From NCBI RefSeq assembly GCF_900185725.1, contig NZ_FYAU01000026.1, forward strand, positions 62,001-126,000: DNA of 64,000 nt, given 5' to 3'. Both the position numbers and the translations under genes were made by a program. This stretch comes from Stappia sp. TSB10P1A. Lineage in GTDB: Bacteria > Pseudomonadota > Alphaproteobacteria > Rhizobiales > Stappiaceae. The notes under the pieces were generated by a model. That model did no database searches. It was not told where the DNA came from and saw only the letters and a program-made list of their open reading frames with translations. Shown here piece after piece: positions 50,121 through 63,619 of the stretch. Position 1 is the stretch's first letter; the number at the start of each line of letters is the position of its first letter.

Positions 50121-50198
50121 TCAGGCCGCGAAATCAGGAAGCGAAGTCAGGCGGCAAAGTCAGGCAGTAAAGTCAGGCAGTAAAGTCAGGCGGCGAAC
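50121..50198 (-). repeat. 13-nt tandem repeat carrying the kinase stop codon, six units
   Basis: Period is exactly 13 from 50121 to 50198; plus-strand units begin TCAGGC or TCAGGA, with TCAGGCAGTAAAG occurring twice. TCA is TGA on the minus strand: the copy at 50186-50188 is the real stop of the kinase gene, and the others fall in all three frames downstream of it. Confidence 0.95.
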
Positions 50199-51469
50199 CG
50201 GTCGAAGAGATCGAGCGGGCCGACCTGCCCGCCCTTGAGCAGCAGCCGCAATCCGTCGAGCGGCGTGCCCGGCGCATGGCCCCGGCAGACGGCGACGCCC
50301 GAGCCGGCGCGGCCCTCGAAGGACAGGCTGTCGAAGCCGAGCCGGCGCACCACCGCCCCCGACGTGTCGCCGCCGGCGACCGCAAGACCGGCAGGGGGCT
50401 GCAGGGCGGCGATGCGCGCGGCAAGCTCCGCCAGCCGTTCCGACAGCGCGTCCGGGGCAATCCCGTAATCGGCGTCCGGCCGCAGATGGGCCAGCACATT
50501 CGCCCCCCGCGCCAGCATTCCGGCACAGCGGGCGGCGCAGTCCTCGCGCCCCGTCCCCTCCAGATCGTCAGGGCCGAGCGGCAGGCAGGCATAGCGCGTG
50601 GCGGCGGCGACCTGGGCGGCTGTGGCCGCCGAGCGGCTGCCGGCCAGCGCCAAGCGCGGCCCGGCGCGGACAGCGGGAGCCGCGAGCGCCCCGCCCCCTG
50701 CCTCGCCCCCTGCCCCGCCCCCTGCACGTCCCGCCACCGCCTCCGCAACGCCGCTTGCGCCGACCAGCAGCAGCGGCCGGCCGTGGGTCTCCAGCAGCGA
50801 CAGGGCAAGGCCCAGCATCTCGATATCGGTGTCGTCGACCGCATCGACCAGCACCCGGCGGCCCGTGCCGTCCGCCATCGCCGCGAGACTGGCTGCCGCA
50901 TCCGGCAGGTCGGGCCGCGCCAGCAGCGCGATGTCCCTGAGCCCTTGCGCGGCGAGATGCCGGCGCAGGTCCGCCTCCCCCATCGGCGTGACCGGATGCC
51001 GGCTCATCACCGGATGGCGGTCGATGCGATGCACTGCCCCGTCGGGGCCGGCCGCGAACAGCGTGCCGAACAGGCAGAAGCGCCGCAGGCTTGGCTGGCC
51101 GCCGAGGATGACGGTGAGCGCCGGCGACAGTTCCTCCTCCAGCACGGCGACCGCCGCGCCGATGCTGCCGACATGCGGAGCGGAATCGAAGGTGGAACAG
51201 ACCTTGTAATGCACGAAGCGGGGCTGGCCCGCCCGCACCAGCGACGTCAAGGCGCGCAGGCGCGGCGCGACCTCAGAGGGCGCGCAGGCGCGAAAATCCG
51301 TGGCGATGCCGACGGCCGGGAACGCCCCCCGCCCGCGCGGCGTCTGCGGCAGGCAGGCAAGGCCCGGCCGCTCCAGGCACAGGCGCGCGGCGATGCCGGC
51401 CTCGGCAAGCGTTGCCAGCGTGTCGGAGGCGCCGGTGAAATCGTCGCCGATGAAGACATAGCCGCTCAT
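50186..51469 (-). CDS. DUF1537/four-carbon acid sugar kinase family (3-oxo-isoapionate kinase-like)
   Basis: 427 aa. N-terminal substrate domain starts FIGDDFTGASDTLATLAEAG (in part, residues 5-16), with Asp7-Asp8 typical of the family; the C-terminal nucleotide-binding domain has GGDTSGAVVRRLG (about 370-382). DUF1537 kinases phosphorylate four-carbon acid sugars and, in apionate pathways, 3-oxo-isoapionate; there they pair with RuBisCO-like enzymes, as here (ATGA overlap). A Gly/Ala stretch in the middle is coded by a 12-nt repeat (50688-50723). The actual substrate is not proven. Confidence 0.85.
   Translation of the reverse strand: MSGYVFIGDDFTGASDTLATLAEAGIAARLCLERPGLACLPQTPRGRGAFPAVGIATDFRACAPSEVAPRLRALTSLVRAGQPRFVHYKVCSTFDSAPHVGSIGAAVAVLEEELSPALTVILGGQPSLRRFCLFGTLFAAGPDGAVHRIDRHPVMSRHPVTPMGEADLRRHLAAQGLRDIALLARPDLPDAAASLAAMADGTGRRVLVDAVDDTDIEMLGLALSLLETHGRPLLLVGASGVAEAVAGRAGGGAGGEAGGGALAAPAVRAGPRLALAGSRSAATAAQVAAATRYACLPLGPDDLEGTGREDCAARCAGMLARGANVLAHLRPDADYGIAPDALSERLAELAARIAALQPPAGLAVAGGDTSGAVVRRLGFDSLSFEGRAGSGVAVCRGHAPGTPLDGLRLLLKGGQVGPLDLFDRFAA
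50688..50723. repeat. 12-nt in-gene tandem repeat, three units
   Basis: GCCCCGCCCCCT, GCCTCGCCCCCT, GCCCCGCCCCCT inside the kinase gene, coding a Gly/Ala/Glu linker between the two domains. Confidence 0.85.
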
Positions 51470-52761
51470 CCCCGCCCCCCGAAAAACGCCAGGGCGCCGG
51501 CAAGCTCCGGCCGCGAGCTTGCGGCCTCTTCGAGATCCTCGTTCGCCGCCACCGCCTCCCATGCCTGGCGCAGGCTGGCGACGCCGGCCGCCGGACCCGA
51601 AGGATGGGCGAGAATGCCGCCGCCGGCCATGAACAGGAAGTCGCTCGACCCGGCGGCGCGCGCGGTGACCGGCAACGTGCCGGCCCACTGGCCGGAGGAA
51701 AAAGCCGGCATCACCGCGTCCGAGGTATCCGGCGCGTCGACCGCGAGCGGCTCAAGGCAGCGGCGCGCCGATGCCTCGACTTCCGATGGTGCGTCGGAGA
51801 ACTTGCCGCCGATGCCGTGCACATGCATGTGGTCGACACCGGCAAGGCGATAGAGCGCCTGATAGGCGTCGAAGCCGATGCCGAGCAGCGGATGGCGGGA
51901 GACGGCGCCGAAGCCGTTGCGATGGCCATGCACAACGAGCGGCGTCGAGCGGCGCAGCGACTGCATCGCCGACAGGCCGCACCAGTTGAGGCTGGCCATG
52001 ACGCAGGACCCGCCCTCGCGCTCCACCAGATCCGCATGGCGGCGCATGGCGTCGAGTTCGTCGGTGATGTTGAAGGCGACCATGACATCGCGGCCGGAGC
52101 GCTGGCGATAGGCCCGCACCCGCGCCATCACCGCGCGCACCCGTGCCTCCAGCGGCGCGTGGTCGGGATCGGCGCAGATCTCGTCGTCCTTGATGAAGTC
52201 GACGCCGGCCTCGCACAGATCCGCGACGAGGGCGGCGATCTCTTCGGCGCTGAGGCCGACATTCGGCTTGATGATGGTGCCGAACAGCGGCCGGCCAGCG
52301 ACGCCGAGCGCGGCGCGGGTGCCGGCAACGCCGTGGCGCGGCAGGTCGAAGCGGGCGCGATAGGCCTGCGGCAGGGCGACGTCGACGAGGCGCAGCCCCG
52401 TGACCTCGCCGAGATCGTAGAGATTGCCCGCAACCGTCGCGGCAAGGGTCGGCAGGTTGGCGCTGATATTGGCGAGCGGATAGGCGATGCGCACCCGCGC
52501 CCGCCGCCAGGGGCCGGGCGTGCCCTGACGCTCCAGCCATGCGCTGGCAAGACTCGGGGCGCTCGCCGGCGCCAGTTCTTCCACGGCGAGAACCTCGGCA
52601 CCGGCACGGGCGCGCAATTCGTCGCTCTCGCCGGCCACCCTCACGAAGGTGCCGCAGCTCTGCTCGCCGGCCATGATCGCCGCGATCCTGTGCGGATCGA
52701 GCGGCGTCTCGACCAGATAGGTCGCCTCGACGCTGCCGGGTTTGAGGGGGATCGCCCGCAT
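51466..52761 (-). CDS. RuBisCO-like protein (OiaT/OiaX-type, form IV)
   Basis: 431 aa with RuBisCO large-subunit fold. The carbamylated-lysine motif is intact as K191-D-D-E194 in GVDFIKDDE; K165 in GTIIKPNVGLS corresponds to catalytic Lys175 of RuBisCO, but the second Lys (177) is Asn167. K320 in GIGGKF is the loop-6 lysine and GGG at 380-382 the phosphate site. Form IV relatives enolise or decarboxylate phosphorylated sugar acids rather than fix CO2. Linked to a DUF1537 kinase, it probably acts on a 3-oxo-acid sugar phosphate as in apionate catabolism (decarboxylase or transcarboxylase/hydrolase). The ATG at 52761 is 8 nt after the VOC gene. Confidence 0.88.
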   Translation of the reverse strand: MRAIPLKPGSVEATYLVETPLDPHRIAAIMAGEQSCGTFVRVAGESDELRARAGAEVLAVEELAPASAPSLASAWLERQGTPGPWRRARVRIAYPLANISANLPTLAATVAGNLYDLGEVTGLRLVDVALPQAYRARFDLPRHGVAGTRAALGVAGRPLFGTIIKPNVGLSAEEIAALVADLCEAGVDFIKDDEICADPDHAPLEARVRAVMARVRAYRQRSGRDVMVAFNITDELDAMRRHADLVEREGGSCVMASLNWCGLSAMQSLRRSTPLVVHGHRNGFGAVSRHPLLGIGFDAYQALYRLAGVDHMHVHGIGGKFSDAPSEVEASARRCLEPLAVDAPDTSDAVMPAFSSGQWAGTLPVTARAAGSSDFLFMAGGGILAHPSGPAAGVASLRQAWEAVAANEDLEEAASSRPELAGALAFFGGRG

Positions 52762-52769
52762 GACGCGCC

Positions 52770-53309
52770 TCAGATCGACGAAAGGTCGGGGAAGGGACGG
52801 ACCGGATCGCTGCCGTCCCAGCCTTCGGACGCCTTGCGGATCATGTCGAACATCCGCCCCTTCGGCCCCATCACCTCGGACAGCTCGATCACCGTGCCGG
52901 GATGGGCCTCGCGGTCGAAATAGGCAAAGCGGCCGTTGGCGCCGACCTTGCCGCTCATCTTGACGCGGAAGCCCTCGGCCTCCATGCGGGCAAGATCGGC
53001 ATCGTAAGCTTGCGTCCAATAGGCGACATGCTGCAGCCCGCGATGGCCGGCGAGGCGGAAGTCGCGATACATCGACGGGGCGTCGTTGCGGGTCTGGATC
53101 AGCTCGACCTGCACCTCGCCGCTGTTGGCGAGCGCGACGGAATTGTGCACCTCGAAGGACTGGCCGTCATAGCGGTAGTCCTCGATCGGCACCTTGGGAT
53201 TGTAGTACCACGGGCCGACGCCCATGACCCGGTGCCAGTGGTCCATCGCCGCCTCGATGTCGTCGACCACGTAGCCGAGCTGGCGGATTGCGCCGAGAAA
53301 CCTGCTCAT
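52770..53309 (-). CDS. VOC (glyoxalase-fold) protein, candidate isomerase or epimerase
   Basis: 179 aa with two vicinal-oxygen-chelate modules. First module starts RQLGYVVDDIEAAMDHWHRVMG (in part, residues 9-20); metal-type His in GLQHVAYWT (about 117) and Glu in VIELSEVMG (about 152). VOC enzymes include methylmalonyl-CoA epimerase, glyoxalase I and sugar-acid isomerases. Its place between TRAP permease and RuBisCO-like genes suggests an isomerisation or epimerisation step before or after phosphorylation. I do not know this gene from described apionate clusters. Confidence 0.8.
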   Translation of the reverse strand: MSRFLGAIRQLGYVVDDIEAAMDHWHRVMGVGPWYYNPKVPIEDYRYDGQSFEVHNSVALANSGEVQVELIQTRNDAPSMYRDFRLAGHRGLQHVAYWTQAYDADLARMEAEGFRVKMSGKVGANGRFAYFDREAHPGTVIELSEVMGPKGRMFDMIRKASEGWDGSDPVRPFPDLSSI

Positions 53310-53317
53310 GACAAATC

Positions 53318-54595
53318 CTATTGCGAGAGAAGACGGGGCAGCCAGGTCGACACCGCCGGCACGGCCGAGACGACCAGCAGCGACAGGACCAGCGGCAGGA
53401 AGAAGGGCAGCACGCCGCGGATCACCGAGTGCACCGGCATCTTCGAGACGATGGAGACCATGTAGAGGCTCATGCCGATGGGCGGGGTCAGCAGGCCGAT
53501 CATCAGGTTGAGCACGAAGACGATGCCGAGCTGCAGCGGATCGACGCCGGCCTGGTGCAGCGCCGGGGCAACGATCGGCGCGATGATCAGGATCGCCGCG
53601 ATGGATTCCAGGAACATGCCGACGACGAGCAGCAGCACGTTGACCAGCAGCAGCAGCACCAGCGGATTGTCGGAGAGGCCGAGCAGCATCTGCCCGGCCA
53701 TCGCCGGCACCTGGTCGAGGGTGAGCACCCAGGCGAAGACGGCCGCCGTCGAGACGATGAAGAGGATGCCGGCAGTCGCCTCCACCGTCTCGCGCAGGCT
53801 CTCCCACACCGCCCGGACGGTCAGCGTGCGATAGACCAGAAAGCCGATGGCGAGCGCATAGGCGACGGTGACGCCGGCAACCTCCGTCGGGCCGAAATAG
53901 CCGCTGAGCAGACCGCCGATCAGGATCACCGGGGCGGCCAGCGCCGGCAGCGAGATCACCGCCTTGCGGGCGACCGCGGAAAGCGACGGGCTGACCGTGT
54001 CGCGCGGCAGGTTGAAGATCCGCGCCATGACGGCGACCTGCAGCATCAGGAAGGCGGTGATCAGCAGCGCCGGGACGATGCCGGCGACGAGCAGTTGCAC
54101 CGCCGAGACATTGGTGACGCTGGCATAGATGATCAGCGGGATGGAGGGCGGGAAGATCGGGCCGATGGTCGCCGCTGCGATGGTGATGCCGGCGGCGAAA
54201 TCGCGCCGGTAGCCCTGGCCCGACATCTGGTCGATCTGGATCTTGCCGAGCGCGCCGATATCGGCGAGGGCGGCGCCCGAGACGCCGGAGAAGATCAGGC
54301 TGACCAGGATCGAGACCTGCGCCACCGCGCCGCGGATGCGCCCGACGACGAGGCGCACCAGATCGAAGATATGGGTGGTGACGCCCATCGCGTTGAGCAG
54401 GCTCGCCGCCAGGATGAACAGCGGCACGGCGAGCAGCGGCGTCGAATCGAGCGCATTGATGCCGCGCTGCGCCAGCACATGCAGCGGCAGGTCGAAGCCG
54501 ACGATGGCGACCGCCGAGGCAAGGCCGAGGGCGACGGCGATCGGCGCGCCGAGCAGCAGCGCGGCGATGAAGACAAGGAGCAGCACGAGGCTCAT
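53318..54595 (-). CDS. dctM: TRAP transporter large permease (DctM-like)
   Basis: 425 aa, about 12 helices. DctM blocks: LGAPIAVALGLAS (about 15-27), FSGVSGAALADIGALG (about 94-109), IGPIFPPSIPLIIYA and the C-terminal GLLTPPIGMSLYM. Sodium-driven import of an organic acid together with DctP and the small subunit. The start overlaps the small-subunit stop (ATGA). Confidence 0.94.
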   Translation of the reverse strand: MSLVLLLVFIAALLLGAPIAVALGLASAVAIVGFDLPLHVLAQRGINALDSTPLLAVPLFILAASLLNAMGVTTHIFDLVRLVVGRIRGAVAQVSILVSLIFSGVSGAALADIGALGKIQIDQMSGQGYRRDFAAGITIAAATIGPIFPPSIPLIIYASVTNVSAVQLLVAGIVPALLITAFLMLQVAVMARIFNLPRDTVSPSLSAVARKAVISLPALAAPVILIGGLLSGYFGPTEVAGVTVAYALAIGFLVYRTLTVRAVWESLRETVEATAGILFIVSTAAVFAWVLTLDQVPAMAGQMLLGLSDNPLVLLLLVNVLLLVVGMFLESIAAILIIAPIVAPALHQAGVDPLQLGIVFVLNLMIGLLTPPIGMSLYMVSIVSKMPVHSVIRGVLPFFLPLVLSLLVVSAVPAVSTWLPRLLSQ

Positions 54596-55131
54596 GGCAG
54601 GGCCTGATCGGAACCGGGGGGCGTCTCGCCGCGAAGAAGGGCGACGAGGCGGGCAAGGGTGACCAGCGCCAGCAGCACCATGGCGACGATGGCGGGCGCG
54701 TAGAACAGCCAGTTGGGAATGCCGAGGGTCGGGGTGGCGAATTTCCACGCCCGCCCGAGGAAGCGGTAGAGCCCGTAGAGGAAGAACAGCGCGAAGGCGA
54801 GGACGCAGAGCTCGACCAGCAGACCGGTCCAGCGCCGGGCCGGCGCCGGCAGCGCCATCGGCACCAGCTCCACCGCCACATGCCGGCCCTGCAGGGCGAG
54901 CAGCGGCACGCAGAGGAAGACCAGCGCGACGCCGCAGAAGCGGGCGAGCTCGTCCGCCCAGGGCATGCCGAGATCAAGCAGGTTGCGGCCGAGCACCTGG
55001 CCGACGACCAGCACGCTCATCGCCACCAGCAGCAGTACGGCAAGGGTGCGGCAGGCGCCCGCCGCCCCCGCCAGCAGCCTGCCGCCCGGAGGTACCGGAC
55101 CAGGGAGGACGGGATCAGTCGCGCCGGTCAT
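54592..55131 (-). CDS. dctQ: TRAP transporter small permease (DctQ-like)
   Basis: 179 aa, four helices. VGQVLGRNLLDLGMPWADELARF (in part, about 51-68) is the DctQ signature. The ATG at 55131 is chosen; the frame stays open upstream through the dctP tail. The N-terminal ~25 residues are Pro/Gly-rich. Confidence 0.9.
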   Translation of the reverse strand: MTGATDPVLPGPVPPGGRLLAGAAGACRTLAVLLLVAMSVLVVGQVLGRNLLDLGMPWADELARFCGVALVFLCVPLLALQGRHVAVELVPMALPAPARRWTGLLVELCVLAFALFFLYGLYRFLGRAWKFATPTLGIPNWLFYAPAIVAMVLLALVTLARLVALLRGETPPGSDQALP

Positions 55132-55162
55132 CGCCGCACCCTTTTCATCCGTGTCCGGGAGA

Positions 55163-56182
55163 TCAGGAGATCGCCCGGATCTTCTCGTAGAGGGCACCGT
55201 ATTTGGCGCCGAAGCGCTCATTGACGAGCTTGCTGACCGAGGCGCGGAAGGCCTCGACATCGAGCCCGTCCTCGGGGCCGATCACCGTCATGCCGGCCTC
55301 GCGCAGCGCCTCAGTGTCCTTCTCCTCGTTGTCCTCGATCGCCTTGGTGGCGCGCTCGCGGATCTCCAGCGAAGCGGCGGCGACCGCCTCCTTCTGGGCC
55401 GGCGACAGGGCCTGCCAGGCGTCCTCGTTCATCACGACGACCTCGGCATTCGACATGTGGCCGGTCAGCATCAGATGCGACTGCACGTCGAAGAGCTTGA
55501 CGTTGAGGATGACGTTGACCGGGTTTTCCTGCCCCGCGACGATGCCGGTGGCAAGCGCCGTCGGCACCTCCGACCAGTCGACCGGAACGGGGGCCGCGCC
55601 CATGCCCTCGACGGCGGCCTGGTAGATCGGGAAAGGCACGGCGCGGATCTTCTCGCCGGCAAGGTCCTCCGGCCGGTACACCGCCTTGTTGGCGGTGAGA
55701 TTGCGGCGGCCGAAATAATGGGCGTAGATCACCCGGACATTGGCCGCCTGGATCAGGCCCTCATTGAGCTCGCGCATCACCGGCGAATTGATGTCCATCA
55801 CCTTCATCAGGTGGTCGACGTCGCGGTAGAGATAGGGCGTGTCGAGCGCCGCGAAAGGCTCGTAGAGCGAACCGATGCCGCCGGCGGTGTTGTGCGAGAA
55901 GGCGATGGTGCCGAGCGACACCGCCTCGGCCAGCTCCTGCAGCTTGCCGAGCTGCGAGGACGGGTAGACCTGCACGGCGATGTCGCCGCCCGAATGCTTG
56001 GCCACCGCCTCGGCGAACCAGTCGGCCTGGGCGCCGGCGACGCTGGCCGGCTCGTTGTTGTGGCCGTAGCGCAGGGTCAGCGACTGGGCGCGGGCGAAGC
56101 CCGGCGCCAGGGCGAAGGCACCGGCCCCGAGACCGAGCGCCAGGGCGCCGCGCCGGCTGACGGAAAACAACTGTCTGGTCAT
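55163..56182 (-). CDS. dctP: TRAP transporter substrate-binding protein (DctP-like)
   Basis: 339 aa. The N-terminus (SRRGALALGLGAGAF) has a twin-arginine followed by a hydrophobic stretch and ends ARA, so export by Tat is likely. DctP fold with the conserved Arg in EKIRAVPFPIYQAAVEGMG (in part, about residue 165-175), which in the family forms the salt bridge to the ligand carboxylate. It points to a carboxylated ligand such as a sugar acid. First gene of the operon dctP-dctQ-dctM-VOC-RLP-kinase. Confidence 0.92.
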   Translation of the reverse strand: MTRQLFSVSRRGALALGLGAGAFALAPGFARAQSLTLRYGHNNEPASVAGAQADWFAEAVAKHSGGDIAVQVYPSSQLGKLQELAEAVSLGTIAFSHNTAGGIGSLYEPFAALDTPYLYRDVDHLMKVMDINSPVMRELNEGLIQAANVRVIYAHYFGRRNLTANKAVYRPEDLAGEKIRAVPFPIYQAAVEGMGAAPVPVDWSEVPTALATGIVAGQENPVNVILNVKLFDVQSHLMLTGHMSNAEVVVMNEDAWQALSPAQKEAVAAASLEIRERATKAIEDNEEKDTEALREAGMTVIGPEDGLDVEAFRASVSKLVNERFGAKYGALYEKIRAIS

Positions 56183-56342
56183 TGCATCCTCCCATGATGG
56201 ATTGAGGCGGCCGTCTCCTTCGGCCTCCATGAGGTATTTTGACGGGCAAGGCAGGAAATCTTGCCGGAAACCCGTTCCTCTTGACAAAAGGCTACGAAGC
56301 CATGAGCATCACGTCAAACATCAATTATTGAGGTTTTTTGAG
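56183..56342. promoter_or_regulatory. Divergent promoter region between dctP and the LacI-family gene
   Basis: 160 nt. A plus-strand TTGACA is at 56281-56286, but no good -10 at the right distance. Presumed site of LacI-type operators; no clear palindrome was found by eye. Confidence 0.35.
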
Positions 56343-57398
56343 GTGCCCTCAGGAGAGATCCAGCTCCCCGCCCAGATCCCCTCCATGGCCGACCTGGCCG
56401 CAGCGGCCGGGGTGTCGCTGGCGACCGTCGACCGGGTGCTGAACCGGCGCAAGGGCGTCAAGCAGCGCACCGTCGCCCGGGTGCTCGCGGCGGCGGTGGA
56501 GATCGGCTACATGAGCGCGGAGGAGCGCGAGAGGCTGGGCGGCCAGCGCCCGCCGAACGTCGCCTTCCTGCTGCCGATGGGCAGCAACCCCTATCTGCGC
56601 CTGCTCGGCGACAAGGTGCGCGGCGTCGCCGACACCCAGACGCGCGATGCCCCGCCGCTGCGCTGCTTCTTCATCGAGAGCTTCGATGCCGGCGCGCTGG
56701 CCGCGGCGCTGCGCCACCACGCCCGCTGGGCCGACGGCATCGCCTTCATGGCGATCGACCACCCCTTGGTGCGCGAGGCGGCGGAAGAGGTGAGCGCCGC
56801 CGGCACCCGGCTCGTCACCATCGTCTCCGACCTGCCGCACCCGGCGCGCGAGGCCTATGTCGGGCTCGACAACCAGGCGGCCGGCCGCACGGCAGCGCTG
56901 CTGCTCGGCCGGTTCTGCGGCGCCCGCGAAGGCAGCGTCGCGCTGGTCGCCGGCAGCCGCACCTACCGCGCCCATGCGGAGCGCGAGATGGGCTTTCTCG
57001 GCCTCTTGGAGGAAGCCTATCCGGGCCTTCGGGTCATCGGCATGCGCGAGGGCCATGACGACCGCAACCAGAACTACCACCATGCCCGCTCCTTGATCGA
57101 CCAGAACCCGGACCTCGTCGGCATCTACAATGTCGGCGGCGCCTCGGACGGCATCGGCCGGGCGCTGGCCGAAAACGGCATGGGCGGGCGGATCGTCTTC
57201 ATCGGCCACGGCCTGACCGCCGACACCCGCCGCCTCCTGATCGAGGGCACGATGGACGCGGTGATCAACTCCGACCCGGACCAGGTGATCGGCGAGACGC
57301 TGGCCCGTTTCGCCCGGCCGGCCGAGGGGGCCGGCCTGCGCCCGCCGCTGAAGATGGACCTGATCTTCCGCGAAAACATTCCGCCGCAATACCAGTAG
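56343..57398 (+). CDS. LacI-family transcriptional regulator
   Basis: 351 aa from a GTG at 56343, which has GAGG nine bases upstream. HTH with hinge at about residues 15-65 (MADLAAAAGVSLATVDRVLN; VNRRK-type wing LNRRKGVKQRTV) and a periplasmic-binding-protein-like sensor domain (about 72-350). A shorter start at the ATG 56385 would cut into the HTH lead. Divergent from the TRAP/RuBisCO-like operon, so probably its substrate-responsive regulator. Confidence 0.92.
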   Translation: MPSGEIQLPAQIPSMADLAAAAGVSLATVDRVLNRRKGVKQRTVARVLAAAVEIGYMSAEERERLGGQRPPNVAFLLPMGSNPYLRLLGDKVRGVADTQTRDAPPLRCFFIESFDAGALAAALRHHARWADGIAFMAIDHPLVREAAEEVSAAGTRLVTIVSDLPHPAREAYVGLDNQAAGRTAALLLGRFCGAREGSVALVAGSRTYRAHAEREMGFLGLLEEAYPGLRVIGMREGHDDRNQNYHHARSLIDQNPDLVGIYNVGGASDGIGRALAENGMGGRIVFIGHGLTADTRRLLIEGTMDAVINSDPDQVIGETLARFARPAEGAGLRPPLKMDLIFRENIPPQYQ

Positions 57399-57843: not shown

Positions 57844-58044
57844 ATGCTCAACTTCAGCGAGAAGGCCCTGCCAAAAGAGCCACCGCGCCCCAGCGATGGC
57901 GACGTGCACACGCGCATCACCAACCAGTTGCAGACCTATTACAACCAGATCCTCACCCAGCCCCTGCCCGACCGGTTCCAGGACCTGCTGCGGCGACTTG
58001 CGGACGAAGAGCCGTCCGCGACCGAAGGGGAGCGCGGGGAATGA
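57844..58044 (+). CDS. nepR: NepR-type anti-sigma factor (first copy)
   Basis: 66 aa. The two-helix NepR core is visible: ITNQLQTYYNQILTQPLPDRFQDLLRRL in part (about residues 25-52), matching the family pattern of helix, P-[DE]-[RK]-[FL], helix. NepR holds EcfG inactive until phosphorylated PhyR takes it away. Its stop overlaps the ecfG start (ATGA). Confidence 0.88.
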   Translation: MLNFSEKALPKEPPRPSDGDVHTRITNQLQTYYNQILTQPLPDRFQDLLRRLADEEPSATEGERGE

Positions 58045-58619
58045 GCGAGACGAAAGCCGAGCTTCGCGACGAGATGGTGGCCTGCATCCCCAGCCTGCGC
58101 GCCTTCGCGGCATCGCTGGTGGGCATGGGCGACCGCGCCGACGATCTGGTCCAGGAAGCCCTGGTGAAGGCCTGGGCCAATCTCGGCCGCTTCGAGCCGG
58201 GCACCAACATGAAGGCCTGGCTGTTCACCATCCTGCGCAACACGCTCTACTCGACGCATCGCAAGCGCAAGCGCGAGGTGCAGGACGTCGACGGCCGCTA
58301 CTCCGCGATGCTGGCCTCCCAGCCGAACCAGACCGGCTATCTCGATCTGGACGACTTCTGCCGCGCCCTCGACCAACTGCCCGACGACCAGCGCGAGGCG
58401 CTGATCCTGATCGGCGCCTCCGGCTTCTCCTACGAGGAGGCGGCGGAGATTTGCGGCTGCGCCATCGGCACGGTAAAAAGTCGGGTCAACCGGGCGAGAA
58501 GCCGGCTCGCCGACATTCTGGGCGCGGATGCCGCCAGCGATTTCGGACCCGACCGCGCCGTCGCGGCCGTCCTTGCCACCTCTCCGGGTTCGGCGGTGAA
58601 GATCAGTGCCATGGAGTAA
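58041..58619 (+). CDS. ecfG: EcfG-family ECF sigma factor (first copy)
   Basis: 192 aa. Region 2 (DDLVQEALVKAWAN, FEPGTNMKAWLFTILRN) and region 4 (LPDDQREALILIGASGFSYEEAAEICGCAIGTVKSRVNRAR in part) typical of the EcfG group. Directs RNA polymerase to GGAAC-N16/17-CGTT promoters in general stress. It has a ~20-residue C-terminal tail after region 4. The sensor kinase gene starts 14 nt before its stop. Confidence 0.94.
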   Translation: MSETKAELRDEMVACIPSLRAFAASLVGMGDRADDLVQEALVKAWANLGRFEPGTNMKAWLFTILRNTLYSTHRKRKREVQDVDGRYSAMLASQPNQTGYLDLDDFCRALDQLPDDQREALILIGASGFSYEEAAEICGCAIGTVKSRVNRARSRLADILGADAASDFGPDRAVAAVLATSPGSAVKISAME

Positions 58620-60270
58620 ACTGCCCCCCAACAGCACCCGGCTCGACCGCCGCCTGTTCGCCCATATCGCGGCGGCGCTGATCCCGCTCGCCGCCCTCGC
58701 CTTCCTGCTGTCCTATTCCGACCTGCAGCGGCGCTCGGCGGAGGAACACCGGCGCTTTCTCGACTATGCCCGGCTGATCGGCCAGTCCAGCGCCAAGGTG
58801 ATCGCCCGTGCGGAAGGCTATGCCAGCGCGCTGACCTCCCAGGACCTGCAGGTCCTGGGAGAGTGCCGTCGCGTGTTCTCCGCCATGCGCGAGGATCTGA
58901 TCGAGGCGACGGAGCTTGCCGTCTTCCGCGCCGGCGCGCCGGTCTGCGCCGTCGGCCTCGCCGGGGACGGCCAGATCGTCGACCATCTGGCGGGTCCGGC
59001 CGCCGAGCAAGAGCCCGAGGCGAGGGTGATCACCATCTCGCGCCAGAACGAGGCCAGCCGCACCCGCATCGACATCGGCTTGCGCCCGCAGACCCTGCTG
59101 ACGGCCCCGATCACCGCGACCGCCGCGACCAATATCGGCTTCGCCCTGGTCGACGGCACGGGCACCGTGCTCGCCTCCCATACCTATCAGGAACAGGACG
59201 CGGCGGATTTCCTGCAGGCCGCCGGCGAGACGCCGGCAGGCGGCGAGACCTTCGTCGAAACCGATCGGGGCTGGTATATCGGCTCGACCCCCCTGCCCGG
59301 CACCACCTACCGCGTCGTCACCGCCAGCCGGTCGCCGGAGCAGCGGCTGGCGCTGTGGCTCACCGTGCTGCGCGCCCTGCTGCCGCCGCTGGTGCTGCTG
59401 GCGGTGGTCTTCATCGTGCTGCGCTACGGCATCCAGCGTTTCCTGCTGCGCTATCTCAGCCATATCTACGCGACGTTCCGCCGATACGGCACCGGCGACA
59501 CCCATGCCCGCGTCGGCATGCTCTCCGCCGCGCCGCCGGAGATCGACCTTTTGGGCGTCACCTTCGACATGATGGCCGACCGGATCGACCGGCGCACCCA
59601 CGACACCGAGACGGCGCTCGCCGAACAGCGGCGGCTGAGCCTGGAACTGCACCACCGCATCAAGAACACCCTGCAGATGATCATCAGCCTGGTCAGCATG
59701 CAGCAGCGCGACGCCACCGGCCCGCGCGAGAAGGCGGCGCTGCGGGTGACGCTCGAGCGGATCCTCGCCATCTCCGCCGCCTACCGGGTCTCCTATGCCT
59801 CGAGCGAGGGAACCGACGTGGAAATGGAAGCCCTGGTCCGCGAGGTGGTGGAAGCGCTGCGAGGCCCGGCAATGCTGCCGCAGGGGCGGGTCCGCATCCG
59901 CGCCGGATCGGGCACGGACGGCGCGCTGATCGACCTCGACCGGGCGATTCCGCTGGCCTTCATCCTGGCCGAACTGCTGCCGCCCCGCTTCGATTCGCTG
60001 CTGCCCGGCGAAACGATCGCCGTCGAACTGAGCGCCCCCGACAGGATGGCCGTGACGATTTCCGGCGCCAGCCAGATCCACGACACGCTCGACGACAACG
60101 GCACCGGCTCGCCCCCCCCGCTGCGCGTGCGGCTGGTGCGCGCCTATCTCCACCAGCTCGGCGCCACCTGCGAGATCGACGGCGCCACCGCCCGGCTGGA
60201 GATCCCGCTGCGCTCGGGAACGGGGGCGGCCGTCCTGCCGCCGGAGGCCGCCGCCGCCGCGCCTCCCTGA
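58606..60270 (+). CDS. Membrane HisKA_2-type sensor kinase with degenerate ATPase domain
   Basis: 554 aa. TM1 about 17-37, extracytoplasmic sensor about 40-245, TM2 about 250-272, HAMP-like linker, then HisKA_2 phosphoacceptor block with His350 in LHHRIKNTL; the HRxxN pattern is typical of kinases that activate PhyR. The ATPase domain looks altered: where an NELVTNA-type N-box is expected it reads AELLPPR (455-461), and the second Gly box reads LRVRLV, although DNGTG (497-501) remains. It may be a weak kinase, phosphatase or pseudokinase. The start is a GTG inside the ecfG end; a later start is possible. Confidence 0.85.
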   Translation: MPWSKLPPNSTRLDRRLFAHIAAALIPLAALAFLLSYSDLQRRSAEEHRRFLDYARLIGQSSAKVIARAEGYASALTSQDLQVLGECRRVFSAMREDLIEATELAVFRAGAPVCAVGLAGDGQIVDHLAGPAAEQEPEARVITISRQNEASRTRIDIGLRPQTLLTAPITATAATNIGFALVDGTGTVLASHTYQEQDAADFLQAAGETPAGGETFVETDRGWYIGSTPLPGTTYRVVTASRSPEQRLALWLTVLRALLPPLVLLAVVFIVLRYGIQRFLLRYLSHIYATFRRYGTGDTHARVGMLSAAPPEIDLLGVTFDMMADRIDRRTHDTETALAEQRRLSLELHHRIKNTLQMIISLVSMQQRDATGPREKAALRVTLERILAISAAYRVSYASSEGTDVEMEALVREVVEALRGPAMLPQGRVRIRAGSGTDGALIDLDRAIPLAFILAELLPPRFDSLLPGETIAVELSAPDRMAVTISGASQIHDTLDDNGTGSPPPLRVRLVRAYLHQLGATCEIDGATARLEIPLRSGTGAAVLPPEAAAAAPP

Positions 60271-60324
60271 AAAACCCGCCTCGTCCGAGAGCTCGACGTC
60301 CTGAAGACAGGCCTGCCGGCGACG

Positions 60325-60380
60325 GGTTCGGCGCAGGGGGTTCGGCGCAGCGGGCTTGGCGCAGTGGGCTTGGCACCTGG
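60325..60380. repeat. 14-nt tandem repeat, four units
   Basis: GGTTCGGCGCAGGG, GGTTCGGCGCAGCG, GGCTTGGCGCAGTG and GGCTTGGCACCTGG between the kinase and DUF1328 genes. Confidence 0.9.
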
Positions 60381-60410
60381 GCGTGGGAGGCAATCGACCC
60401 GAACAAAAAG

Positions 60411-60438
60411 GCGCCGCGGGGAACGTGCCCCGCGGCGC
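60411..60438 (-). terminator. Terminator of the DUF1328 gene
   Basis: GCGCCGCGGGG-AACGTG-CCCCGCGGCGC, an 11-bp perfect stem. On the minus strand it is followed by CTTTTTG, so it reads as a factor-independent terminator for the gene at 60512-60691. Confidence 0.85.
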
Positions 60439-60511
60439 AGCAGGCGGTCAGGCGAGGGAGGAGAAGGCATGCCGCCCGCATGCAATCCGGTGCCGGTCGG
60501 ACCGGTGCCGA

Positions 60512-60691
60512 TCAGACCGGCGGCGGCCGGCGGCCGCTGATCAGGCCATAGACCAGAGAGATCACGAAGAGGATCAACGCGACCACGAAGATCAGTTGGG
60601 CGATGCCCATGGCTGTGCCGGCGATGCCGCCGAACCCGAACACCGCCGCGATCAACGCGACGACCAGAAAGGTCAGAGCCCATCCAAACAT
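60512..60691 (-). CDS. DUF1328 (YtjA-like) small membrane protein
   Basis: 59 aa, two hydrophobic helices. It begins [19 protein letters not shown] and goes on with [14 protein letters not shown], then [11 protein letters not shown]; this is the usual length and pattern of DUF1328. Strong RBS AAGGAGATG. Function unknown, but members are commonly part of the general stress regulon. A weak EcfG-like site (CGAAC-N16-CGTT, minus strand, 60863-60839) lies about 150 nt upstream. Confidence 0.88.
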
Positions 60692-61001
60692 GTTTCATCT
60701 CCTTCAGTCACAGCCGGATCGGACGTCGAAAAGCGCCGGAAGCCGGGTAATCGTACCGCAGGCGATGGCAGGTCTTCGTCATTCACCGGGAACGACAAGG
60801 ATGACCGCAGGCGATACATCGTTCAGTGTCGGGATACGAACGCACCAGCAGCGTTTTTGTTCGGCCGCACCCGTGTTTTTTTAAGATTTGCCTTTTTTCA
60901 ACGATCGCCCGCCCTCTCTCGTGCGCATGTTTCCTCCTTGCTCACCCACGCCTTGCGCGCGGCCTTAGCTTACGCGCGCCTTACGCGCGCAGCGCGCGCG
61001 T

Positions 61002-61066
61002 GCCGTTTCACGGGGCGGTTTCATGGGTCGGTTTCATGGGTCGGTTTCATGGGGCCGACGCATCGG
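61002..61066. repeat. 13-nt tandem repeat, four to five units
   Basis: GCCGTTTCACGGG, GCGGTTTCATGGG, TCGGTTTCATGGG (twice) and a degenerate fifth unit. Confidence 0.9.
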
Positions 61067-61108
61067 GGCCGGATCGACTGGGGCCGGATCGTTTTTCGGG
61101 AAAGGTCC

Positions 61109-61133
61109 GGAACCTTTTCCCCGCGCCGGGGTT
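61109..61133 (+). promoter_or_regulatory. Near-match EcfG promoter before the PRC-barrel gene
   Basis: GGAAC (61109-61113), 16-nt spacer, GGTT (61130-61133) in place of CGTT. One mismatch from consensus, about 95 nt before the start. Confidence 0.4.
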
Positions 61134-61226
61134 GATCTGGCGTGACTGATCCGAACCCGCGGCCCTGATCGAAGCGGCAGGCGGGCGACGATCGCGGGAC
61201 AATCCGAGCATCAGGAGATCAACGAC

Positions 61227-61751
61227 ATGATCCGCAAGCTTCTGACCACCACCGCCCTCGCCGCTGCCCTGGTTGCCGGCACCATGACCACCGGTGCCAT
61301 GGCGCAGGACCAGCCGCTCAACGAGGACACCGGCATGACGCCGGCACCGGCGACCCCGGGCATGGACATGCCGGCGACCGGGTCTGACGCCACGGCCGCT
61401 CCCACCACCCCCATGGGCGACCGCAACATCCTGTCCGAGTTCGGCGCCACCAGCGCCGACGAGCTGATCGGCAGCACCGTCTACAGCAACCAGGACGAGG
61501 ATCTCGGCAGCGTCTCCGACGTGGTGGTGTCCAGCACCGGTGAGGTCGACGCCATCGTGATCGATGTCGGCGGCTTCCTCGGCATCGGCGCCAAGCCGGT
61601 GGCCGTCGAGGTTTCCTCGATCGACATCCGCCGGGACGAGAACGGCGATCCGCGCATCTACACCAACTACACCCAGGAGACCCTGGAGGCCCTGCCGGAG
61701 TATTCGGCGGACGCCACGGACGGTGTCCGCGACGTCGCCCCGGCCCAGTAA
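61227..61751 (+). CDS. Secreted PRC-barrel domain protein
   Basis: 174 aa. Signal peptide 1-26 (cut after AMA), an acidic Pro/Met/Ala-rich linker (about 27-65), then a PRC-barrel (about 75-150: ELIGSTVYSNQDEDLGSVSDVVV in part, AIVIDVGGFLGIGAKPVAV). Periplasmic PRC-barrel proteins of this form are common in Alphaproteobacteria and are often stress induced; their role is unclear. Independent gene by spacing. Confidence 0.9.
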   Translation: MIRKLLTTTALAAALVAGTMTTGAMAQDQPLNEDTGMTPAPATPGMDMPATGSDATAAPTTPMGDRNILSEFGATSADELIGSTVYSNQDEDLGSVSDVVVSSTGEVDAIVIDVGGFLGIGAKPVAVEVSSIDIRRDENGDPRIYTNYTQETLEALPEYSADATDGVRDVAPAQ

Positions 61752-61873
61752 GGCGTCGGCCACGGTTCGACCGAGGACGAAGCGAAAGGGAGGTGCCGGC
61801 GCGGCCGGCGCCTCCTTTCCTGTCGCGGCGCCCGCCGCCACCGGACGCTCCCCGAGGCCGGTTCCAGGCATCG

Positions 61874-61894
61874 GGTTTCAGGTTTCAGGTTTCA
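61874..61894 (+). repeat. 7-nt tandem repeat, three units
   Basis: GGTTTCA three times, just before the ribosome binding site of the DUF883 gene. Confidence 0.85.
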
Positions 61895-61910
61895 GCAAAG
61901 GAGAGGCACG

Positions 61911-62270
61911 ATGCCGACCACCGCCACCACCGAAAACGGCAGCGCCGCCGCTGCCGCCGCCAGGGGCGCCCGGGCACAGGACGAGGCCGCCAACATCCAG
62001 GACAATATCGAGCGCCTGCGCGGCGACATTTCGGCCCTCGCCCAGTCGATCTCCCGCTACGGCTCCGAGAAGACCAGCGAATACAGCGAGCGTGCCAGCA
62101 AGGCCGGCAAGGATCTTGCCGATGCCTCGCAGCAGACGCTCGACAGCCTGACCGAGGAGTTGAACCGGCTGGAGCACTCGCTGGCCACGCATGTCCGCCG
62201 CAAGCCGCTGCAATCGCTGGGGATTGCCGCCGGCATCGGCTTTCTGGTCGCCCTGCTGTCGCGGCGCTGA
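61911..62270 (+). CDS. DUF883/ElaB/YqjD-like membrane-anchored protein
   Basis: 119 aa. A long helix (about 25-95) with heptad-like spacing is followed by a single C-terminal membrane segment ending in a basic tail (KPLQSLGIAAGIGFLVALLSRR in part). In E. coli the YqjD group is sigma-S induced and binds ribosomes at the membrane. RBS AAAGGAGAGG. Probably co-transcribed with the next gene, as yqjD is with yqjE. Confidence 0.88.
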   Translation: MPTTATTENGSAAAAAARGARAQDEAANIQDNIERLRGDISALAQSISRYGSEKTSEYSERASKAGKDLADASQQTLDSLTEELNRLEHSLATHVRRKPLQSLGIAAGIGFLVALLSRR

Positions 62271-62275
62271 GCGCG

Positions 62276-62707
62276 ATGCTGCGCCTTGCCCCGCTCCTCG
62301 CCTCGCTGCTGACGCGCGACCTCGGCGCGGCGCTGCGCCGGCTTCGCCGCTCGGCACTGGTCTGGGCGCTGGCCGGCCTCTTCGCCCTTGCCGCCTATGC
62401 GGCGGGGCTGATCGCCGCCGGCCTGGCGCTTGCCACTGTGGTTGCTCCGGCGGCGGCGGCGCTTGCGGTCGGCCTGTCGCAACTGCTGCTCGCCGCGCTG
62501 GCGCTCAGTTGGCTCGCCCTCGTCAATGCGCGGGAGCGGCGGCGGCTGAGACACGACGACGGCCACCGGACGCTGGCGACGACGGCGGCGCTCGCCGCCG
62601 CCCTGCCCCTCCTCGGCTCGCGCAAGGGGCTGGCGCTGGCGGCGCTCGGCGGTCTGGCGCTGCTGCTCGCCGCAAGACGCGCGGCAGAGGGGCCCGGCCC
62701 CGACTGA
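62276..62707 (+). CDS. YqjE-like/phage-holin-family membrane protein
   Basis: 143 aa. Two adjacent hydrophobic helices (about 27-75) and a third hydrophobic stretch near the C-terminus (about 100-130), with a basic loop NARERRRLR between. It follows the DUF883 gene by 5 nt, the order seen for yqjD-yqjE. Very Ala/Leu-rich, so the family call is tentative. Confidence 0.65.
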   Translation: MLRLAPLLASLLTRDLGAALRRLRRSALVWALAGLFALAAYAAGLIAAGLALATVVAPAAAALAVGLSQLLLAALALSWLALVNARERRRLRHDDGHRTLATTAALAAALPLLGSRKGLALAALGGLALLLAARRAAEGPGPD

Positions 62708-62750
62708 CGGGCACCTGCGACTGGGGGGGGGCCGGCCAAAGGGAGGGCGG

Positions 62751-63347
62751 CTAAAGGGCGGAGCCGAACGTCTCCGCTCCCTCGTCCTCGGTCAGTGCCA
62801 TCACCTCGCGCAGCCGCGCCCTGGCGCGGTGGACGCGGCTCTTCAGCGTGCCGGTGGCGCAGCCGCAGATCTCCGCCGCCTCCTCGTAGGAGAAGCCGGA
62901 GGCGCCGACGAGAATGATCGCCTCGCGCTGGTCGCCCGGCAGCGCGTCGAGCGCGCGGCGCATCTCATGCATGGCGAGCGAGGCGTGCTGCGGCGGCGCC
63001 ACCGCAAGCTGCGCGGCCAGCCGCTCGCCGCTGTCCGGAACCTCGCGCGAGGTCTTGCGCAGCCGGCTGTAGAAGCCGTTGCGCAGGATGCGGAACAGCC
63101 AGGCGCGCATGTTGGAGCCCGGCACGAAGCCGTCCCGGCCGGCCCAGGCCCCCAGCACCGCGTCCTGGACGAGATCGTCGGCAACATCGCTCCGCCCGCA
63201 GAGCGACACGGCGAAGGCGCGCAGGCCCGGCAGTTGCGCCAGCATCTCGCGCCGGAAGTCGGATCCGGATTCGGATCTGGAAGCAGGCGCGGCAGGAGAC
63301 GCCGGCGCGCCCGGCTTTGCTTCGGGCTTTCCGGCGCCGGGCTTCAT
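62751..63347 (-). CDS. ecfG: EcfG-family ECF sigma factor (second copy)
   Basis: 198 aa. A Pro/Ala/Ser-rich N-terminal tail (about 1-28), then region 2 (VADDLVQDAVLGAWAG, VPGSNMRAWLFRILRNGFYSRLRK in part) and region 4 (LPGDQREAIILVGASGFSYEEAAEICGCATGTLKSRVHRAR in part). Region 4 is nearly the same as in the first EcfG, so the two probably recognise the same promoters. Start overlaps nepR by one base (TGATG). Confidence 0.94.
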   Translation of the reverse strand: MKPGAGKPEAKPGAPASPAAPASRSESGSDFRREMLAQLPGLRAFAVSLCGRSDVADDLVQDAVLGAWAGRDGFVPGSNMRAWLFRILRNGFYSRLRKTSREVPDSGERLAAQLAVAPPQHASLAMHEMRRALDALPGDQREAIILVGASGFSYEEAAEICGCATGTLKSRVHRARARLREVMALTEDEGAETFGSAL

Positions 63348-63547
63348 CACTCGGGGTTCTCCGAGGCCTTCGTCTCCGCCTCGTCGAGCCGGTCGAGCAG
63401 GTCGAGAAAGCGGTCGGGCGTGCCCTCGTCCTGGACGGAATCGTAGAAGTCCCGTAGCCGCTGCATGATCGGGTCGTGGCTCGCCGCCGCCTGTCCCGGC
63501 ATGCCCGCCGGGATGCGCCCCGCGCCCGTTTTCTTCGCTTCCGTCAT
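63347..63547 (-). CDS. nepR: NepR-type anti-sigma factor (second copy)
   Basis: 66 aa. Core helices MQRLRDFYDSVQDEGTPDRFLDLLDRL (in part) match NepR, including the P-D-R-F turn. Divergent from phyR, the classic arrangement. The ATG at 63547 is used; one three codons upstream (63556) is also possible, and neither has a strong RBS. Confidence 0.85.
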   Translation of the reverse strand: MTEAKKTGAGRIPAGMPGQAAASHDPIMQRLRDFYDSVQDEGTPDRFLDLLDRLDEAETKASENPE

Positions 63548-63619
63548 CGCGCCCATCCGGTTCAAAGCCCCGCCGCCAGTATAGGCCAAGCGGCGAAGCC
63601 AAAAAAAGGGACGCGGCAG

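Follow-up and report, generated by a model that had tools for sequence, protein, structure and literature searches.

What does a RuBisCO-like protein (RLP) do when its gene shares an operon with genes for a VOC protein, a DUF1537 kinase and a TRAP importer? The question is raised by a six-gene, minus-strand operon of Stappia sp. TSB10P1A, in the order DctP-DctQ-DctM-VOC-RLP-DUF1537, within a 64,000-nucleotide stretch of contig NZ_FYAU01000026.1 (the whole of this stretch is referred to as the window). The operon is a widely conserved variant of the RLP-DUF1537 acid-sugar type and an undescribed one as far as the open-licence literature shows; in that literature no report was found that joins a RuBisCO-like protein, DUF1537 and TRAP, and none on apionate with a RuBisCO-like protein or on a four-carbon acid sugar kinase with RuBisCO. 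The reading favoured here, with a confidence slightly short of even, is that the operon is a self-contained, LacI-regulated catabolic unit for one imported small (hydroxy or oxo) sugar acid, likely branched next to the carboxylate, on which the VOC protein, the kinase and the RLP would act in that order.

Conservation of the operon and identity of its enzymes

The relatives considered here are the best 80 of the 241 loci returned by a scan of the collection. VOC, RLP and kinase genes follow one another in this order on one strand in all 80, which excludes chance as the source of the association, and a LacI gene lies divergently upstream in 78 (L020 and L050, where none was found, are short contigs). 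Many bacteria of soil and sea carry this gene set, the importer being of several types. Window-type TRAP genes are found in 39 relatives (in L020 by DctM only) and another TRAP type in 37, with a fused permease found in all of these but L024 and L073 (35 loci); L049, L068 and L072 carry ABC-type importer genes, and on L050, a contig of 6 kb, no importer was found. Mean identity to the window proteins is 77% for the VOC protein, 71% for the RLP, 57% for LacI (78 loci) and 46% for the kinase. Among the 80 loci, an ApdH-like gene was found once (L021, at the locus edge and outside the operon), a DerI-like gene once and a hydrolase of the type present in L088 twice, both kinds far from the operon, while PdxA2-type aldolase genes were found in none and PdxA in one (L072, at the locus edge). 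When the genes of the loci were clustered, the only other recurrent enzyme group seen in at least 8 loci was SDR, mostly outside the operon. Because other enzyme genes are rare or lie outside the operon, the kinase, the VOC protein and the RLP look sufficient as its enzymes.

In the window the six genes are tightly packed and divergent from a LacI-type regulator, as a preliminary description of this DNA had stated. The genes for DctP (55163..56182), DctQ (54592..55131), DctM (53318..54595), the VOC protein (52770..53309), the RLP (51466..52761) and the DUF1537 kinase (50186..51469) are separated by 31, -4, 8, 8 and -4 bp, the negative values being 4-bp overlaps between DctQ and DctM and between the RLP and the kinase. 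All six open reading frames start with ATG, contain zero internal stops and show strong coding bias in third-position GC. The six proteins and the divergent regulator all score above the Pfam gathering scores, among them the TRAP solute-binding protein DctP (PF03480, 191.8 bits), the small permease DctQ (PF04290, 97.2 bits) and the large permease DctM (PF06808, 361.4 bits); the Pfam queries for VOC, DctQ and LacI carried from a few to about 30 surplus residues at the start, and the Pfam/NCBIfam query for the RLP was without its first 17 residues. Pfam searches of the operon's proteins found no oxidoreductase, lactonase, ApdH or DerI/LerI, so the oxidoreductase and lactonase noted as missing at the outset are indeed not encoded there.

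The RLP belongs to the RuBisCO superfamily by its PF00016 score (214.5 bits, threshold 30.1) and by its KDDE motif (Lys191-Glu194), the intactness of which had been pointed out before and extends to the KDDE lysine of 81 out of 81 VOC-clade RLPs. In what we take to be the usual RuBisCO residue numbering, the catalytic positions K175, K201, D203, E204, H294, R295, H327, K334, E60 and N123 are kept in all 81, window included; the S379 row was left out of this count, its alignment column being apparently off by one. Scores fall below the cut-offs of the OiaX model (NF042437, 384.1 bits against 700), the two MtnW models (TIGR03332, 134.7 against 513.6; NF007095, 156.2 against 409) and the two RuBisCO models (TIGR03326 for type III, 235.3 against 497.45; NF003252, 226.3 against 438), and the names OiaX, MtnW and RuBisCO thus do not apply. 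The preliminary description had held that grouping with the methionine-salvage enzyme would speak against an acid-sugar role; by the MtnW scores the RLP does not group with it.

An RLP tree of 69 rows included 26 of the 81 close RLPs (that of the window and those of 25 of the 80 loci) and three further VOC-linked ones. Of the 29 VOC-linked RLPs in this tree, 28 group together in a single clade (support 100/97). The OiaX sequences form a separate clade of 20 rows (100/100), and RLPs from clusters that contain a PGDH_C-domain (ApdH-like) or an SDR gene stand apart from both; this ApdH-like label rests on a Pfam check in L085, L213 and L221 and on inspection by eye in L214 and L217-L219. The lone VOC-linked RLP outside the VOC clade, that of L120, is placed among the ApdH/SDR-linked RLPs (99/96). 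Since the outgroup branch is very long, no deep branching order is claimed. Among the 297 genomes of the order surveyed, 20 contain sequences that score 758-791 against the OiaX model.

The closest solved structure is 3nwr (646.6 bits), presumably from Burkholderia fungorum, whose group falls within the VOC clade. Over 432 residues it is identical to the RLP of L029 from Paraburkholderia xenovorans LB400, which stands in a VOC-RLP-DUF1537 operon, and the RLP clade of 3nwr thereby gains a tight genomic context; it is of the same RLP group as the window protein, although the importer beside its L029 counterpart is of the other TRAP type. Closer still in sequence are the RLPs of two Stappia species, to which the window RLP is 94% and 91% identical. 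One further RLP, of L184 (G262:C317:291-1547), has a single in-frame internal TGA and is possibly a pseudogene or an assembly error.

The kinase is a member of the DUF1537 (four-carbon acid sugar kinase) family, with 164.2 bits for PF07005 (threshold 25) and 68.8 for PF17042 (threshold 28.3). It reaches 218.3 bits against 700 for OiaK (NF042436) and 151.3 against 350 for OtnK (NF043035), and is likewise below the cut-off for DtnK. OiaX and OiaK are thus the nearest named models of the two enzymes, both far below their cut-offs, an outcome that fits the earlier comparison with acid-sugar operons of the RLP-DUF1537 type.

The source genome (5.13 Mb) contains four RuBisCO-domain genes: a RuBisCO candidate (L081, PF00016 461.3 bits), the window RLP and two further RLPs (L085 and L086), each followed by a DUF1537 kinase, which makes three RLP-kinase pairs. 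The pair of L085 adjoins a PGDH_C-domain (ApdH-like) gene, and upstream of that of L086 (7405-10549) lies the gene of a Glycolipid_bind (PF06475) protein, with a TRAP importer and an aminotransferase-like gene seen by eye in the vicinity. In view of these two other pairs the window operon is probably a third, separate pathway, and the three pairs are apparently for different substrates.

The VOC protein and clusters without an RLP

The VOC protein is a Glyoxalase_4 member of the VOC superfamily (PF13669, 86.4 bits, threshold 27) with a putative metal-ligand quartet, Gln10-Glu69-His94-Glu142, which is invariant in 95 of 95 aligned VOC proteins. We take this quartet to be the ligand set of human glyoxalase I, an enzyme that shifts protons through an enediol. 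Methylmalonyl-CoA epimerase was rejected as an identity (TIGR03081, 23.6 bits against 114.95), and the presence of the gene in every relative likewise rules out an accessory role. The VOC protein, for which an isomerase role had been suggested, is therefore an integral part of the operon and has an isomerase-like residue pattern, the reaction itself being a proposal from sequence.

Whether the VOC protein belongs to the RLP or to the rest of the operon can be judged from the survey of the order, in which 73 RLP places and 29 VOC places were compared by coordinates, by eye. A VOC gene adjoins each of the 12 RLPs that reach 65% identity and 1 of the 61 below that value (G194, that is, L120). VOC places with 57% identity or more number 22: an RLP adjoins 13 of them, 6 have PdxA in the cluster, 1 is L212, and the neighbourhood of the remaining 2 (G149 and G239) was not retrieved. 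Five of the PdxA clusters (L121, L123, L154, L155 and L160) combine VOC with PdxA, a DUF1537 kinase, DeoR and an aldolase, with no RLP adjoining; in L159 only PdxA adjoins the VOC gene and an aldolase is encoded elsewhere in the genome. L212 (17.5 kb) has LacI, TRAP and VOC, and no match to RLP, DUF1537, PdxA or aldolase. Seven VOC places at 53-56% identity serve as the outgroup of the VOC tree. The three of these that were retrieved (L156, L157 and L158) represent a subfamily 55-56% identical to the window protein; no LacI, TRAP, RLP, DUF1537 or PdxA match was found near them, and the genes seen by eye around them are of SDR, P450 or solute-binding type.

In two of the RLP-free clusters, L159 and L160, PdxA stands in the place of the RLP beneath a related LacI regulator (59-63% identical to that of the window), DctP (76-78%), DctM (72-73%) and VOC protein (73-74%). 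In the VOC tree of 95 rows their VOC proteins lie inside the VOC-RLP clade (99/83 for a set of 13 rows, 100/94 for one of 15), and those of the four other PdxA clusters form its sister group (99/92). Because the upper genes are related and the VOC proteins nest in this clade, the lower half of the pathway appears, on the sequences, to have been replaced while a related upper half was kept. The VOC gene is thus linked more closely to the importer than to the RLP, and it is therefore more likely that its product acts early, on the imported acid. This modifies the preliminary description, according to which the VOC protein sits in place of the oxidoreductase and lactonase: the idea of a variant route is supported in part, with the VOC protein as an integral member, and a simple substitution beside the RLP is not, because VOC also accompanies the importer where the RLP is lacking.

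In the RLP-free clusters the aldolase matches DeoC at 88.5 bits and the LsrF model at 136.8 (cut-off 297), the kinase of L154 scores 469 against OiaK, its highest match as for the window kinase, and 51 against DtnK, and the PdxA of L154 scores 302.7 against 583 for D-threonate-4-phosphate dehydrogenase. Zhang et al. reportedly described in 2016 a D-threonate pathway with a DUF1537 kinase (DtnK) and PdxA2; the RLP-free clusters share its pairing of a PdxA-family protein with a DUF1537 kinase, but add VOC and a DeoC/LacD-type aldolase. Catabolism of autoinducer-2 (AI-2) by LsrK-LsrG-LsrF proceeds through a kinase, a carbonyl-shifting isomerase and a C-C cleaving LsrF-type enzyme, and is similar in having a kinase, an isomerase and an enzyme of the LsrF type; the aldolase of the clusters is below the LsrF cut-off, however, and their kinase and isomerase are of other families. 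The erythronate route of Brucella, LtnD/OtnK/OtnI/DenD/OtnC in the accessible text of PMC10580937, is different from these clusters. On the simplest reading, the VOC protein acts first, and one and the same imported compound, or a similar one, is then degraded by either of two lower halves, one made up of the RLP and a kinase and the other of PdxA2, a kinase and an aldolase. It would follow that PdxA2 (with an aldolase) can replace a RuBisCO-like step where importer, regulator and VOC protein are related, and that a VOC enzyme stands early in the breakdown of acid sugars.

Proposed route and competing explanations

The closest known system is the catabolism of D-apionate through ApdH, OiaK and OiaX or OiaT, which Carter et al. 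reportedly described in Nat Chem Biol in 2018. There too an RLP and a DUF1537 kinase handle a phosphorylated 3-oxo branched acid of the same general kind; unlike that pathway, the window operon has no ApdH and no DerI/LerI, and it has a TRAP importer and a constant VOC protein. The pathway is also treated in the available portion of PMC6302742.

In the proposed route the TRAP system would import the acid, and the VOC protein, as a glyoxalase-I-like metal enzyme, would shift a carbonyl by enediol(ate) chemistry of the aldose-ketose or ketol-acid type. Its product would be a 2-hydroxy-2-R-3-oxo-4-hydroxybutanoate-type acid, such as arises in the apionate pathway through oxidation by ApdH, and a non-redox precursor would be an aldehydo acid, HOOC-C(OH)(R)-CH(OH)-CHO, or its ketol-acid isomer. 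Since the VOC gene of L120 adjoins an RLP of the ApdH/SDR-linked clade, the VOC protein and ApdH may have products of one type. The kinase would phosphorylate the 4-hydroxyl to a 4-phosphate, from which the RLP, by means of a carbamylatable lysine and an Mg site, may remove CO2 as OiaX does, or transcarboxylate and hydrolyse as OiaT does. The products would enter central metabolism, as 3-phosphoglycerate and a hydroxy acid in the case of OiaT-type chemistry. In the RLP-free version PdxA2 could act on the same phosphate as a beta-keto-acid decarboxylase, giving a ketose 1-phosphate for cleavage by the DeoC/LacD-type aldolase. If so, the operon possibly holds a new reaction of the RuBisCO superfamily and perhaps reveals the fate of a plant acid.

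Several points weigh against this proposal. PdxA2 usually oxidises the 3-hydroxyl before decarboxylation, and the two lower halves may then differ in redox state, in which case the idea of the VOC product would fail. A dehydrogenase may be encoded elsewhere in the genome, and an SDR gene lies inside the operon in 2 of the 80 relatives (L054 and L067). At only 32-36% identity, the kinases found in the two lower halves may use different substrates, no kinase match was found near the PdxA of L159, and L120 and L212 are single genomes. The Q/E/H/E quartet is kept as well in the distant VOC proteins of L156-L158, of unrelated context, and the assignment of a function to the VOC protein follows from this residue pattern only.

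An unlikely alternative is that the operon is a TRAP version of apionate catabolism, in which 3-oxo-isoapionate (or apionate, with ApdH encoded elsewhere) passes through a kinase and an RLP like OiaK and OiaX/OiaT, and the VOC protein is accessory. OiaX and OiaK are after all the nearest named models, and the source genome does have an ApdH-like PGDH_C gene beside another RLP-kinase pair. That gene of L085, however, has its own pair, only one of the 80 loci has an ApdH-like gene near the operon, and the window RLP clade is separate from that of OiaX; the VOC gene, present throughout and better conserved than the kinase, is not what an accessory gene would be.

A four-carbon route is quite improbable. 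In it an imported oxo-tetronate would be isomerised by the VOC protein in the role of OtnI, phosphorylated by the DUF1537 kinase in that of OtnK and decarboxylated to dihydroxyacetone phosphate (DHAP) by the RLP in that of OtnC, and the Otn steps do match the three enzymes one-to-one. The OtnK model recognises the kinase at 151 bits, but OiaK does so at 218, both below cut-off, and the aldolase of the RLP-free version would not be needed for a C4 acid. Solute-binding proteins of the second TRAP type share 56-64% identity (61% for the DctP of L029) with 4oan, which belongs to the TRAP proteins of Rhodopseudomonas palustris HaA2 and has what we take to be 2-acetolactate as its ligand. This ligand was rejected for the present operons, as closer DctPs (66-87% identical to 4oan) sit in other contexts, L109-L119, where VOC, RLP and DUF1537 matches were found in 0 of the 11 loci searched. 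A DctP model predicted without an alignment had a predicted local distance difference test score (pLDDT) of 36.5 and was not used. The solved chains nearest to the window DctP are 4p9k/4pak, 4pdh, 4p47, 4pdd and 4nq8; according to the accessible part of PMC11668362, 4p47 belongs to a group otherwise bound to pantoate or erythronate, which favours the four-carbon route.

That the VOC protein acts last, isomerising a ketose-phosphate product of the RLP in the role of LerI/DerI, is very unlikely: an OiaX locus (L221, that is, L197; 786.5 bits, above the cut-off) does carry an ApdH-like gene and a DerI-like isomerase just below its cut-off (NF051858, 230.8 against 240), and the window operon has no such isomerase, but VOC genes that lack an adjoining RLP, or stand with LacI and TRAP alone as in L212, show that VOC tracks the importer rather than an RLP product.

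Within the favoured order of VOC protein, kinase and RLP, a specific but remote candidate for the substrate is a 3-C-carboxy aldose, HOOC-C(OH)(R)-CH(OH)-CHO, such as aceric acid (3-C-carboxy-5-deoxy-L-xylose), the natural example found in the plant pectin domain rhamnogalacturonan II (RG-II). The VOC protein would then be a new type of aldose-ketose isomerase, forming without redox chemistry HOOC-C(OH)(R)-CO-CH2OH, which in the acerate series corresponds to 3-oxo-isoapionate. With R = CH(OH)CH3, the kinase would make the 4-phosphate and the RLP would yield 3-phosphoglycerate and lactate if OiaT-like, or CO2 and 5-deoxypentulose 1-phosphate if OiaX-like; in RLP-free clusters PdxA2 would decarboxylate and the aldolase would release DHAP and acetaldehyde. 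If true, this would account for three enzymes being sufficient, for the lack of a conserved dehydrogenase and for an aldolase occurring only with PdxA2. The name 3-C-carboxy-5-deoxy-L-xylose occurs in the title of a reference within the accessible part of PMC12168206, and no description of aceric acid catabolism was found in the limited part of the open-licence literature that was consulted.

Regulator, related clusters and flanking genes

The LacI-family regulator gene (56385..57398, plus strand) matches PF00356 at 44.6 bits and PF13407 at 125.8 bits with a query from 56289. Its start at about 56385 is uncertain, upstream TTG or GTG codons being possible. Between it and DctP, the intergenic region (56183..56384) is where, by position only, a promoter and operator are expected.

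RLP-kinase genes were also seen in other arrangements. RLP-kinase-TRAP clusters with an SDR-type gene, and with pyruvate kinase in the flanks, are present in L088 (a Cupriavidus pinatubonensis plasmid), L089 and L095; the flanks of L088 also carry enolase and phosphoenolpyruvate carboxylase genes, as if the RLP product were 3-phosphoglycerate. A haloarchaeal RLP-DUF1537 pair on a Natronosalvus rutilus plasmid (L096, 7602-11692) has a shorter VOC gene about 1 kb upstream, an association with the RLP that may be independent. Beyond the regulator, at 57844-63556 of the window, a histidine-kinase-like gene and two occurrences of small NepR-like and sigma-factor-like genes were recognised by eye; together they look like a general stress response cluster.

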